Positions 57,471 to 62,480 of a DNA stretch of 64,000 nt are shown here, one piece after another. This DNA is from a candidate division WOR-3 bacterium (GTDB taxonomy: Bacteria > Hydrothermota > Tepidihabitantia > SM23-42 > JAOAFX01): contig JBDRVV010000010.1 of the NCBI GenBank assembly GCA_039802005.1, positions 1-64,000 of the forward strand, in the 5' to 3' direction. Position numbers and translations under genes: made by a program. The notes under the pieces were generated by a model. It searched no databases. It worked only from the letters and a program-made list of their open reading frames with translations, and was not told the DNA's origin. Within the stretch, counting starts at the first letter, position 1; each line of letters starts with the position of its first letter.

Positions 57471-58439
57471 TTATTTTGTTTTCTCTCTTTTTGTCAGAAC
57501 CCGATAATAAATAAATAAAAAAACCAAAAATATTCCAGTAAAAAAGATAAACATTAAACCCATAGGCAATAAATGTGAATCATATACATTAAACCAATAT
57601 ATATCAAGCGCAGCATAAGCAACAATCAATTGAACAACTGAAACCATGATTATCAAAAGATAAATAGCCATTGGTTCATGATATCTATTCCTCATTGCAA
57701 AGAATGATATCGCACATATTATTAACGATATTATCTGGGAAAGGATTCCAAAATAAATGAAGGAAATCTTGGGACTCCATCCATCAGGATTCCCCCTGAC
57801 ATCAAAGTGGGTTGCAATCTTATCGGGCAATTGAGGATAAAGCAAAATGATCATTATCAGTGTGAGCATGAAGATTGTCTCCGGAACCAATAGTATCAGT
57901 GGACTTGCCTTCTTTTTTATCGTTTCGGGCTCAGGGTTTTCCTTAATCAGTGTTGTGCCAGTAGTTGACCTGAACCATTCTAATAAGCGTTCAGGCTTTT
58001 CTGGTGAAATCGCATAGTATCCATTTTTTGATTTTATAATTAAGACATCTTTCAATCTTGTTAACTGACAGTTGATATTTCCATAATCTTTTGTAGTATA
58101 GATGCCATAATAACCAAATAATCCTCCATTGCCCAATGACCTGATAGGTTTTAATTTATAAAAGTCATCAACTTCAAAAATGCCTTCAATTTCACTAATT
58201 GGAATTGAAATCTTTGTTCCTATAACTTTTTCAATAATGAAATATGCCCCCTGTATATAATAACTTTTAGGGCTTAAAAGGTAGCTGATTAAGACTATAG
58301 AAAGCATTAATAAAGCAAAAATCCAACCGTAGGGGATATTATTTATTAAAAAAAAGAAAGAAAAACAGACCAATAAAATACTTGTAATTATTGAGGTTAT
58401 CAGCGCCAATCTATCAAGTTTTGCAGGTTTAAATTCCAT
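57471..58439 (-). CDS. DUF1648-domain membrane protein
   Basis: 322 aa. About six membrane helices. N-terminal helices (LALITSIITSILLVCFSFFF, about 10-29; WIFALLMLSIVLISYLLSP, about 38) precede a PH-like part (about 60-165: ISIPISEIEGIFEVDDFYKL; VLIIKSKNGYYAISPEKPER). The DUF1648 core is at about 205-225: LPDKIATHFDVRGNPDGWSP, with helices before and after. In known cases (SdpI and kin) DUF1648 proteins act in immunity or signalling; here its role is unknown. It lies 2 nt after the solute-binding lipoprotein gene. Confidence 0.82.
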   Translation of the reverse strand: MEFKPAKLDRLALITSIITSILLVCFSFFFLINNIPYGWIFALLMLSIVLISYLLSPKSYYIQGAYFIIEKVIGTKISIPISEIEGIFEVDDFYKLKPIRSLGNGGLFGYYGIYTTKDYGNINCQLTRLKDVLIIKSKNGYYAISPEKPERLLEWFRSTTGTTLIKENPEPETIKKKASPLILLVPETIFMLTLIMIILLYPQLPDKIATHFDVRGNPDGWSPKISFIYFGILSQIISLIICAISFFAMRNRYHEPMAIYLLIIMVSVVQLIVAYAALDIYWFNVYDSHLLPMGLMFIFFTGIFLVFLFIYYRVLTKREKTK

Positions 58440-58441
58440 AA

Positions 58442-59656
58442 TTATTCCAGATCAACAAAGAATCTTTTTGCAGCGTTATTAAGTGCCTGTTCTGGGGTTC
58501 TTTCTAAACGCATTGCTTCTTCAAGTGCTTCGTTTAGATATATTCTGCCGGTGAACCATTCTTTTGTCTTCGGCTCAGTAGTTGCAAATTTAAGTTGTGC
58601 AATAATTCTATCATAATTAGGATTTTCATTAAGAAATTCTTGGAACTCAGGCATTTTCGTTGTGCTCTGCCTCGTGGGAAGATAATAACTTGCCTTCGTC
58701 CATTTTATCTGTTGTTCAGGTTCTAAGAACCACCGGATAAATTCCCAGGCAAGTCTTTTCTGTTCGGGAGTGGCTTTTTTAAACATTCCAATATTTGTTC
58801 CTGCAATCACAACTCTTTTATTTTTGCCGCTGGGGAATGGTGCTACACCCATTTTAAATTTTGGCCTGCCCTTCAAGAATGCCCAGGAGACAATGGAAGC
58901 TGGTATTGTTGCTACATTGCCGCTTAAAAATTCATCTTGACGTTGAAATCCAGGATTTAGATAAAATAAACTATCCTTTACCAAACCAACTAAATATTCT
59001 AAAACCTTCACCCCTGGTTCAGTATGAAACATTGGTTTCTTTGAGGTTTCATTGAATAATTCGCCACCTTCCTGATACACCATTGAACCAAAATACCAGA
59101 CATCAATAGGCCAGGATGTAGGCCAAATCCTTAATTTTTTCAATTTTTCACAGGCAATTCTGAATTCAATCCAGTTGTCAGGAAATTTGTATATTCCAGC
59201 TGAATCAAATATTGTAGCATTGTAATAAAATACCGGAAGGCTTTTATTAAAAGGAAGGGTAACAATTATTGAATCAAATGTGTTATCCTCAATAAATACC
59301 GGGAAAAAATCTGAAATGTTAAAGGAAGAATCTTTATCAATAAAATTCTGCAGGGGTTCCAAATATCCTGCTTTTAGAAATTGATCGGTCCATGATTCAT
59401 ACATTTGAGCGATTGTTGGCGGCGAATTTGACGCAATGGCGCCCATAAGTTTTTGTGCCAAGGCATCGTACGAACCCATCTGGGCAGATTTTATCTCACC
59501 TTCGGGATGCAATCTGTTAAACTCCTGTACCATTTCATTAAGTTTTTTTCCAATCGGTCCACCCATCACATGCCAAAAGTATACAACACATTTCTGTTCT
59601 TTAACACAACCCATAGAGATAAAGAAAGAAATCACCAGCGATAACCGGACTACCAT
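58442..59656 (-). CDS. Extracellular solute-binding lipoprotein (ABC type, family 1)
   Basis: 404 aa from ATG 59656, within the stop of the upstream gene (ATGGTAG). The lipobox is SMGC (LVISFFISMGCVKEQ, about 6-20). The periplasmic-binding fold is seen in VYFWHVMGGPIGKKLNEMVQ (about 22), NSPPTIAQMYESWTDQFLKA (about 77), ASIVSWAFLKGRPKFKMGVA (about 244) and LAWEFIRWFLEPEQQIKWTK (about 290). It would bind a sugar or polyol; in Gram-negatives it usually works with permease genes, which are not in the window. Odd partner: the fusion protein upstream. Confidence 0.88.
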   Translation of the reverse strand: MVVRLSLVISFFISMGCVKEQKCVVYFWHVMGGPIGKKLNEMVQEFNRLHPEGEIKSAQMGSYDALAQKLMGAIASNSPPTIAQMYESWTDQFLKAGYLEPLQNFIDKDSSFNISDFFPVFIEDNTFDSIIVTLPFNKSLPVFYYNATIFDSAGIYKFPDNWIEFRIACEKLKKLRIWPTSWPIDVWYFGSMVYQEGGELFNETSKKPMFHTEPGVKVLEYLVGLVKDSLFYLNPGFQRQDEFLSGNVATIPASIVSWAFLKGRPKFKMGVAPFPSGKNKRVVIAGTNIGMFKKATPEQKRLAWEFIRWFLEPEQQIKWTKASYYLPTRQSTTKMPEFQEFLNENPNYDRIIAQLKFATTEPKTKEWFTGRIYLNEALEEAMRLERTPEQALNNAAKRFFVDLE

Positions 59657-62445
59657 TCGGGGCCAATTGTCAGATAGAACTTCCATTTTGAAGGTTCGCC
59701 CTTTTCATCGACCCAGTTTTGAAGGTCATTTGAACGGGCAAAATCAAGTTTGAATATTGCAAAAAATAAATTAAATCGCAGTCCAAACCCAAGCCCCATC
59801 TTTACATCTTTGAAACGAACTGGCAAAATACCCTCTGCGGATTCAAAGACATCAAATGAATCAGAATAGAGACCTGCAAAATCAGCAAAAAGAACTCCCC
59901 TGATATTCTTGATTTCCATAGGTAAAGGAAATGCCAGTCTGAGCCGGTCTATGAATGGAAACCGATATTCAAAATTGAAAAATCCTAAATCCGCCCCAGT
60001 AAATGTATAATAATCAAAACCCCGTATTGAACCCGGACCACCAATTGACCATAGTTCATCATCCTTACCAAAATTACCTGCCAGCACGAGCCTCGTAGCA
60101 AAACTTGCCCTGGGAGACAACCTGAAATAGCGTCTGTAATCAAGGACCCCAACTTTTATATCAAAATCACTAAATACTGTAGTATATCCGGTTATGCGTG
60201 TGCGCACACCATTAATTGGACCTATATCCCCCCATTTTGCGTTGTCAAAAATAATAGAAAGTTCAGGATATGTGAAATTATAAGAAGTATCCGCATACCT
60301 ATCTGAATAAAAATCATCAAAAAAATCAAGCCATTTTGTTTCATAAATTTTGTATTTGTAAAGTCCCAATTCGGCTCGGAAAAATTTTGTAAATGGGAAT
60401 TGCACCATACCGCCTATACCAAGATAACGCCATATCACAAGGTCATTACCGCTGGCAAAATAGTTTAAATACTGATAAAAGGCAAAGCCGAAGTCCATTC
60501 TTTTCTTCAAATACCAGTAAACAAAAAATATATCTGAAGAAGACAAACTGCCATAGAAGTCAGTGCTGAACTGAATGAGGTGGTCACCAAGAATGTCACT
60601 TAAGGCAATCTGAGTCATACCCGAGAAACCGAGTGGTGTATAATAAGAAGCGCTTGCTACAATATAATCAAGCGAAAATTTCAGGCGATACTTTCTAACT
60701 TTTTCTCTGTCAGGCTCACCTGCAGTATACGAATTTTCAGCAATTGCAGTTCCGATTGAGTCACATTCAAACATTCGTTTAAGCGGGTCTTTGACAACAC
60801 ATATATCATAGCCATAATCATTATAATATCCAAATGCAATTTTTTGAAAATCTTTTGAAATGGAGGGATAATAAATTCCCGTAAGGATATCTGTTCTTTT
60901 TGTTATTCTATTTTCATTTAGTGAAAGATAATAAAGATTATAGGCTGAATCATAATCAGCAATAAAGTAAATACCTGTGTCAGCATTGAAGAAAGGCCAG
61001 GCTATGTAGGTTGAGCGTGGAGTAAGTCTTTTAATATCATTTCCCTCTTTCAAAAAAACACCATAACTCCCATAGTAATAATTTTCATTAGAATCAGGAC
61101 GGTCTGAGACGAAAATTATTTTGTCCTCGGTGAAAATAGCAGGAAACTTATCGGCATATATATCATTTGTTATTCTCTCAACATTCCCGCTTGATATTTC
61201 AACTTGATAAATATCAAGATATGAATCCTTTAATCCGCTGAATACAATCTTCTTGCCATCCAATGAAAATTTTGGGGAATATATACCATTGAGTTTCAAT
61301 TTGAATTTTTTATATACCTTACCGGTTCTTGAATTTATTATATAAAGAACATCCTCACCCTGAGACTTGGCAGCAAAACTTATATATTTCTCATCCGGTG
61401 ACCAGGTAATGCCCCCCTGATAAAGATGTAAGCCCTCATATCCCGATGAATATTCAGCGCGAATAAGTTTTTTCAGAATTCTACCATCAATACTTGATAT
61501 TACAATCAAATCTATATTCCCTTGACGGTCACTAATAAATGCAATCTTATCACCATTTGGTGATATTGAAGAAGATGTATTATAGAATGAACGTGTCTTT
61601 TTATGATCATAAACAACGCGTGCAAAGTTTTCAAAATTTTCCGAAAGTCTAACTTTAGGCCAGTATTGCAATTGATAGAATTTAATCCAGCGTTTATTAA
61701 ATTCATCAACATTGATACCAAACGCGCTGATAAATGCATTTTCCAGATTTTTCTTCGCCTTGAGAAGGTGTATGAATTCGCTTATCTTTTCCCTGCCATA
61801 TTTAACATTTACATAATGAAAAAATGCCTGCCCTTCTTTATATATTATATACCCGCCATAATTGCCCAATTCCGATAATGAAATTACCTGATTATGCATA
61901 ATTAAATCCCGCATATAAATATCAGCCTCAAGGTTCCAACCTTGGGAGAAATATTCAGCGCATCCTTCCATTACCCAAAGGGGTATCGAGTAAAAAAGGT
62001 CGCCCGTCAATATCGCCTCAAGTTTTGAAGGGAAGAAAATTACAAATTCAAATACATGCGTCAACTCATGGACAAGCACATGGCGAAATTCTTCGTAGTC
62101 ACCATTAAAAGGTATAACCATACGATTTTTTAAAATCTCGGTAAAACCACCAACCGATTCCTCAATCAATTCAAGGGTAACATTGGTCTGAGAAAAATGA
62201 TTTGGTGCATTATAAAGTATTACTGGAATGCGGAATTCAACCTCAATGCCAAAATCTTTGCTCAATTGTTCGTAGCCATCTTCAAGCACATCCTGGGCAA
62301 AGTGGGCGATCGTCTCTCCACCATCATAAAAATAGATTTCAAAATGTTCGCTGGAGAGAATTTTGAAATTAAAATCACGATATTGTATTTTATTCTGCCC
62401 GAAATATTGATTGAAAAAAAACAAAACAAACAAAAAAGTGGTCAT
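59650..62445 (-). CDS. Exported fusion: MA-clan metallopeptidase + beta-propeller + Omp85-like barrel
   Basis: 931 aa. Signal (TTFLFVLFFFNQYFG). N-terminal part: HVLVHELTHVFEFVIFFPSK holds the HExxH zinc site (about 115), with MEGCAEYFSQGW (about 160) giving the gluzincin Glu. Then TolB/PD40-type propeller blades (about 285-560: ISPNGDKIAFISDRQGNIDL; WSPDEKYISFAAKSQG; KFSLDGKKIVFSGLKDSYLD). The last about 320 residues are barrel-like with the Omp85 block WSIGGPGSIRGFDYYTFTGA (about 820) and end in FYLTIGPEW. Metal site plus propeller plus surface antigen barrel suggest an outer-membrane-anchored protease. It starts 7 nt after TATAAT. Confidence 0.85.
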   Translation of the reverse strand: MTTFLFVLFFFNQYFGQNKIQYRDFNFKILSSEHFEIYFYDGGETIAHFAQDVLEDGYEQLSKDFGIEVEFRIPVILYNAPNHFSQTNVTLELIEESVGGFTEILKNRMVIPFNGDYEEFRHVLVHELTHVFEFVIFFPSKLEAILTGDLFYSIPLWVMEGCAEYFSQGWNLEADIYMRDLIMHNQVISLSELGNYGGYIIYKEGQAFFHYVNVKYGREKISEFIHLLKAKKNLENAFISAFGINVDEFNKRWIKFYQLQYWPKVRLSENFENFARVVYDHKKTRSFYNTSSSISPNGDKIAFISDRQGNIDLIVISSIDGRILKKLIRAEYSSGYEGLHLYQGGITWSPDEKYISFAAKSQGEDVLYIINSRTGKVYKKFKLKLNGIYSPKFSLDGKKIVFSGLKDSYLDIYQVEISSGNVERITNDIYADKFPAIFTEDKIIFVSDRPDSNENYYYGSYGVFLKEGNDIKRLTPRSTYIAWPFFNADTGIYFIADYDSAYNLYYLSLNENRITKRTDILTGIYYPSISKDFQKIAFGYYNDYGYDICVVKDPLKRMFECDSIGTAIAENSYTAGEPDREKVRKYRLKFSLDYIVASASYYTPLGFSGMTQIALSDILGDHLIQFSTDFYGSLSSSDIFFVYWYLKKRMDFGFAFYQYLNYFASGNDLVIWRYLGIGGMVQFPFTKFFRAELGLYKYKIYETKWLDFFDDFYSDRYADTSYNFTYPELSIIFDNAKWGDIGPINGVRTRITGYTTVFSDFDIKVGVLDYRRYFRLSPRASFATRLVLAGNFGKDDELWSIGGPGSIRGFDYYTFTGADLGFFNFEYRFPFIDRLRLAFPLPMEIKNIRGVLFADFAGLYSDSFDVFESAEGILPVRFKDVKMGLGFGLRFNLFFAIFKLDFARSNDLQNWVDEKGEPSKWKFYLTIGPEW

Positions 62446-62452
62446 ATATGTA

Positions 62453-62480
62453 ATTATAATTAAAATGTAGTTAGAGTCAA
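62453..62480 (-). promoter_or_regulatory. Leaderless-type promoter of the fusion-protein operon
   Basis: Reverse strand: TTGACT (62480-62475), 16-nt spacer, TATAAT (62458-62453), then 7 nt to ATG 62445. Confidence 0.77.

Follow-up and report, generated by a model that had tools for sequence, protein, structure and literature searches.

We predict, with a probability of roughly one half, that a 931-residue protein encoded in the window (the whole 64,000-nucleotide stretch of WOR-3 DNA analysed here) is a putative metallopeptidase that is anchored in the outer membrane, faces the periplasm and acts in the assembly or quality control of outer-membrane proteins. This prediction draws on sequence comparison, structure modeling and analogy with characterized proteins. 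Profiles, alignments and models together show three domains in one chain, the residues of a predicted metal site, and co-existence with a separate canonical, BamA-type Omp85 protein. The kind of fusion is already known; what is new here is a strictly conserved peptidase domain, apparently overlooked until now, and an unexpectedly core-like distribution.

Domain layout, predicted metal site and topology

The protein is encoded at 59650..62445 on the minus strand, with an ATG start, as judged from the ORF list, profile matches and an AlphaFold model; all features described below lie on the same strand. A putative Sec signal peptide (residues 1-13, 62407..62445) is followed by a gluzincin peptidase domain (residues 27-267, 61645..62367; Pfam, AlphaFold and Foldseek), a TolB-like PD40 propeller of about six blades (residues 276-552, 60790..61620; profiles, model and Foldseek), a 37-residue linker seen in the AlphaFold model (residues 553-589, 60679..60789) and a 16-strand Omp85 barrel that ends in an aromatic residue, W931 (residues 590-931, 59653..60678; PF01103, model, Foldseek and alignment). 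The signal peptide is weak when the window is considered alone, as its leader is hydrophobic and has no basic n-region. The leaders of relatives are clear Sec signals that end right before a conserved YFGxNKxxY, and the earlier assignment of a signal peptide is to that extent upheld.

Several profiles match the protein. Pfam matches include Peptidase_MA_2 (E 5.9e-10, residues 56-256), PD40 (E 1.7e-9) and PF01103 Omp85, the last above its curated cut-off at bases 59653-60213, and an M61 match falls slightly below cut-off. Among NCBIfam models, a TolB model (E 2e-21) and the Omp85 family model (Omp85_fam) were matched. The full-length TolB model TIGR02800 scored 76 bits against an equivalog cut-off of 343, and we read this score as homology of the propeller only, not as membership of TolB. 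The propeller also matches solved TolB at the sequence level. A full-chain AlphaFold (AF2) model built on 18 relatives (pLDDT 79.8, pTM 0.79) places an alpha/beta domain at residues 27-267, the propeller at 276-552 and 16 barrel strands at 590-927. In a Foldseek search of this model against the PDB, TolB (7.6e-10) and BamA (4.9e-9) were matched. Profiles, AlphaFold models and Foldseek thus agree on the one-chain fusion of zinc peptidase, propeller and outer-membrane barrel claimed in the preliminary description, and the closed barrel with an N-terminal propeller that it had anticipated was obtained in the full-chain model. Pfam gave no match to a POTRA domain, and the 37-residue gap between propeller and barrel is too short to leave room for one, which bears out the suggestion that the peptidase and propeller take the place of POTRA repeats.

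By model and sequence, the peptidase domain is predicted to have a gluzincin fold of clan MA(E), with an HExxH motif and a downstream glutamate ligand. Modeled alone with 86 sequences, it reached a pLDDT of 89.2, and its nearest folds in the PDB were the peptidase domains of collagenases H and G and the M1 aminopeptidases, although these matches were modest (E 7e-5 and weaker, with about 15% sequence identity). The HExxH motif (H126-H130, 62056..62070) would supply two metal ligands and the general base, and E160, in the motif PLWxxEGxAEY (residues 155-165, 61951..61983), is the predicted third ligand; both assignments come from the alignment. This alignment holds 114 distinct relatives, of which 112 cover the peptidase site. 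H126, E127 and H130 are unvarying in relatives with a readable site, the seeming HExxH exceptions being fragments or a masked or truncated stretch, and E160 is present in 112/112. R108, P112, Y202 and G205 are likewise invariant among the covering relatives, which represent about seven lineages, and the metal-site residues are invariant down to about 25% full-length identity.

The C-terminal 16-strand barrel, the PF01103 match and the loop-6 signature place the protein, by model and sequence, in the Omp85 superfamily. Loop 6 (residues 792-818, 59992..60072; model and alignment) bears the Omp85 signature GGPGSIRGF, with RGF at residues 808-810. R808 of the superfamily signature [LIV]RG[FY] is kept in 108/112 relatives and G809 in 110/112, and D617, G746, E826 and R828 are invariant barrel residues among the covering relatives. 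Proteins of the BamA/TamA type have at least one POTRA domain, and the 931-residue protein falls outside that type. We assume that an insertase function of the barrel would carry over from the superfamily by analogy.

In the full-chain model, the connections after odd-numbered strands are 3, 8, 2, 11, 8, 27, 20 and 14 residues long, the 27-residue connection being loop 6, and those after even-numbered strands are 4, 5, 4, 8, 2, 5 and 2 residues long. Long connections in the odd-strand set are the normal outer-membrane pattern, so both termini of the barrel are predicted to be periplasmic. This in turn predicts a peptidase and a propeller that face the periplasm. The preliminary description had left the choice between a surface-facing and a periplasm-facing protease; barrel topology and the precedent of PlpD (PMC11116518) favor the periplasm over the surface.

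Distribution, descent and neighboring genes

Relatives were gathered from named genomes of WOR-3/Stahlbacteria, Bacteroidota, Zixibacteria, Krumholzibacteria, Rhodothermia and Acidobacteria, and through whole-genome searches. The peptidase-propeller-Omp85 family was found in 143/147 genomes of the WOR-3 phylum, including 92/93 of those of good quality, and mostly at full length. When the domain order was sought in other phyla, it was also found in 161/248 sampled Bacteroidota (the phylum of a Bacteroidetes genome; E <= 1e-30, a count that may include partial or distant members) and in 56/119 sampled Acidobacteriota (the phylum of an Acidobacteria genome; E <= 1e-100). The triple fusion is therefore not unique to this genome, and the rarity implied by its first description was mistaken: the family is phylum-wide, and its outline is known as WD40-Omp85 (PMC4104836).

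The family is often multi-copy, and it occurs alongside canonical Omp85. An Omp85 profile match was present in 147/147 WOR-3 phylum genomes, mostly with an ORF of BamA length (about 730-780 aa), although in fragmentary genomes the match could be the fusion protein itself. Such matches in all genomes, mostly in ORFs of BamA length, indicate that the fusion stands beside BamA and not in its place. Judged by sequence, it is a conserved addition to BamA across the phylum.

A branch with support 72 in a FastTree tree has all WOR-3 sequences on the same side, and their families group together. This is consistent with vertical descent from the ancestor of the phylum, though it is no proof of it. Two Acidobacteriota rows, L140 and L143, sit on very long branches and were left out of the interpretation. 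A second, very distant subfamily of equal domain order (L146-L151) is present in WOR-3 and Bacteroidota; it retains the HExxH motif, the propeller and the barrel, and mostly has an RGY loop.

In the window, the fusion gene is followed by a solute-binding lipoprotein gene (SBP, UgpB-like by profile matches; 58442..59656, minus strand, probable ATG at 59656) and then by a gene for a bPH_5 and DUF1648 membrane protein (Pfam; 57471..58439, minus strand). The SBP ATG overlaps the stop of the fusion ORF, and the DUF1648 ATG lies 2-3 bases past the SBP stop. This spacing agrees with the transcript that the preliminary description proposed for the three genes; we infer their co-transcription from it. 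A sigma70-like promoter, TTGACT-16-TATAAT (62453..62480, minus strand), recognized solely by its 11/12 matches to consensus, lies 7 nt before the fusion ATG, and a leaderless start is predicted. A similar promoter just before the ATG was observed in about nine loci of the order (L008, L009, L011, L013, L037, L044, L045, L051 and L055). The near-consensus promoter in the window and in these related loci suggests a conserved leaderless mRNA for the operon.

Neither neighbor is a general partner of the fusion, and both were rejected as such: the SBP gene adjoins it in about 17 loci, and only in part of the order to which the window belongs, and the DUF1648 gene is common only to the window and its nearest relative, L008. 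No ABC permease genes lie directly beside the SBP gene (58442-59656, minus strand), and its partner transporter, if any, is encoded elsewhere.

Other clades have other neighbors. A gene for a BamB-like PQQ lipoprotein (PF13360, E 6e-40 and 5e-73) lies directly downstream of the fusion in Bacteroidota, Zixibacteria and one Rhodothermaceae paralogue, and is the next gene in 11/14 members of the clade that these form. Other WOR-3 families have a gene for an unnamed lipoprotein (about 400 aa) in this position, and after it often come a GT2 gene and a gene for a Peptidase_C25 protein that matches PorU, the type IX sortase. Examples of such lipoproteins directly downstream of the fusion are L014:5179-6288, L074:4617-5855, L079:4493-5743, L099:4610-5890 and L103:4815-5963; apart from a single, very weak hit to MucB/RseB, this lipoprotein family had no Pfam match. 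An M23 (LytM) gene is near the fusion in ten loci from a further set of WOR-3 families, and in nine of the ten it lies directly upstream. The partner thus varies by clade, yet a theme of envelope assembly with a lipoprotein appears to recur in these gene orders. The neighbor is an SBP gene in one clade and, in others, the gene for the unnamed lipoprotein, the BamB-like gene or an upstream M23 gene, so that each is no more than a candidate partner. Any one of these linkages could go back to a single inherited arrangement, which would leave few independent events.

Eight loci (L014, L074, L075, L077, L078, L079, L099 and L103), drawn from different WOR-3 families, have a PorU-like C25 gene (NF033707) close to the fusion and on its strand; the match is above the curated cut-off in L014 and L099. 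The window's own genome encodes a SprA-like protein (C2:56761-60357), a PorV-like protein (C1:31900-32940) and ten C25 peptidases above cut-off (on C3, C6, C12, C14, C23 and C50). Our literature search yielded nothing on type IX secretion in WOR-3.

Proposed function and alternative explanations

We propose that the POTRA domains ahead of the Omp85 barrel have given way to a TolB-like propeller and an HExxH gluzincin peptidase, and that this N-terminal part would hang in the periplasm beneath the barrel. The propeller could be a docking platform, as for BamB and TolB, and the peptidase would bind zinc and be active. Its substrates may be clients of outer-membrane or surface assembly, either misfolded or stalled barrel proteins or precursors that need cleavage, and a lipoprotein encoded next door may be its partner. 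The cleavage role is modeled on the free-standing BepA of E. coli. More tentatively, and with somewhat more doubt than belief, we envisage a phylum-wide, one-chain machine for outer-membrane assembly and quality control, in which peptidase, propeller adaptor and barrel would receive, proof-read and cut barrel or surface clients beside BamA in FCB-type phyla and Acidobacteriota. As a counterpoint, the analogy with PlpD suggests that Omp85 barrels can be put to other uses.

An alternative interpretation, which we consider rather unlikely, is that the fusion is mainly a second insertase or translocator of outer-membrane proteins that resembles BamA plus BamB, with the peptidase a minor accessory that trims substrates. 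Heinz and Lithgow proposed this role for WD40-Omp85 (PMC4104836), and it would account for the Omp85 barrel with its conserved loop-6 and strand motifs and for the BamB-like gene that adjoins the fusion in several phyla. However, a canonical Omp85 is already present in all 147 phylum genomes, POTRA domains are lacking, and the catalytic residues vary as little as the barrel motifs do, which does not give the peptidase the look of a minor part. It is improbable that the peptidase domain has lost its activity altogether and that HExxH is a structural relic in a domain that only scaffolds; of the readings considered here, this is the one we credit least. Inactive enzymes do occur in other fusions, but the invariance of HExxH and E160 among the 112 covering relatives, which holds in distant homologs and extends to HExxH in the deeper subfamily, makes a dead peptidase unlikely. 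The structural task that had been considered for this domain is disfavored for the same reason.

Two further explanations concern the cell surface. The fusion might serve a type IX-like sorting route, in which the peptidase and propeller process or pass on cargo together with a PorU sortase encoded nearby. Such a route is favored by the PorU-like genes of the eight loci and by the window's own genome, which encodes homologues of SprA and PorV as well as the ten C25 proteins. We nevertheless judge it improbable: no PorU lies beside the fusion in the window's own clade or in the Bacteroidota, Zixibacteria and Acidobacteriota loci examined (few, and often with short flanks), and, given about ten C25 genes in each genome, one would expect some to lie close to the fusion anyway. 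Self-secretion, in which the barrel would carry the peptidase and propeller of the same chain out to the cell surface (the type Vd idea), has the order of signal, enzyme and barrel of the original PlpD proposal (PMC4104836) in its favor. It is very unlikely, given that the enzyme domain of PlpD stays periplasmic (PMC11116518) and that a 16-strand barrel would not be expected to let a folded propeller, about 280 residues long, pass. A periplasm-facing metallopeptidase in outer-membrane assembly or quality control is the reading that we prefer.

Comparison with known systems

Clostridial collagenase (M9) and the M1 peptidases have the closest solved folds to the peptidase domain. The spacing from HExxH to the third glutamate is about 28 residues in M9 and about 18 in M1; in the 931-residue protein this glutamate lies 30 residues past HExxH, like M9 rather than M1. 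In Pfam, the domain described here matches Peptidase_MA_2 and neither of these families.

The nearest overall counterpart is the WD40-Omp85 class, named in 2014 for proteins with an N-terminal beta-propeller closest to TolB, an Omp85 barrel and no POTRA, and likened to a fusion of BamA and BamB (Heinz and Lithgow, PMC4104836). The 931-residue protein has the same layout, and its family likely belongs to this class, as judged by domain order rather than by the 2014 sequence list. It has a peptidase domain in addition; none is named for the class in the main text of PMC4104836. That text also describes the additional Omp85 subfamilies, except Lipo and TamA, as conserved at the genus level only, in contrast to the near-universal presence in a whole phylum found here. 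The "Metallo" subfamily of the same paper likewise joins an Omp85 barrel to an N-terminal domain, termed a metalloprotease there; it belongs to PF00149, a family of calcineurin-like phosphoesterases, whereas the present domain is an HExxH peptidase. A decade later, WD40-like Omp85 was still among the classes not well characterized (PMC11116518, 2024). Our literature search found nothing on this protein (as a triple fusion or as Omp85 in WOR-3), and no mention of an HExxH peptidase or of any function for the WD40-Omp85 class. We also considered whether the fusion might correspond to BamP or BamM, subunits of the BAM complex in Flavobacterium johnsoniae, and found no support for this: the main text of the paper on that complex does not use the words propeller, peptidase or TolB.

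PlpD, a patatin-Omp85 protein, also combines an enzyme and a 16-strand Omp85 barrel in one chain, and its enzyme domain was shown experimentally to stay in the periplasm (PMC11116518). PlpD differs in being a phospholipase with one POTRA and no propeller. BamA and BamB share with the 931-residue protein the barrel fold, the RGF of loop 6 and the principle of a propeller partner, but have five POTRAs, a separate BamB of the PQQ type and no peptidase. BepA, a periplasmic zinc peptidase described as helping or destroying LptD at the BAM complex (PMC8423444), is no more than a functional analogue, a zinc metallopeptidase that takes part in the assembly and quality control of barrels. It is a soluble protein with M48 and TPR domains and no barrel; Pfam gave no M48 or TPR match in the 931-residue protein, where the helical region is part of the Peptidase_MA_2 domain. 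What is known of proteolysis at the outer membrane and of barrel assembly comes mainly from Proteobacteria, where separate proteins do this work. A version in one chain, kept by nearly all genomes of a phylum and present in the genetically tractable Bacteroidota, would make the role of propeller-type Omp85 proteins directly testable.
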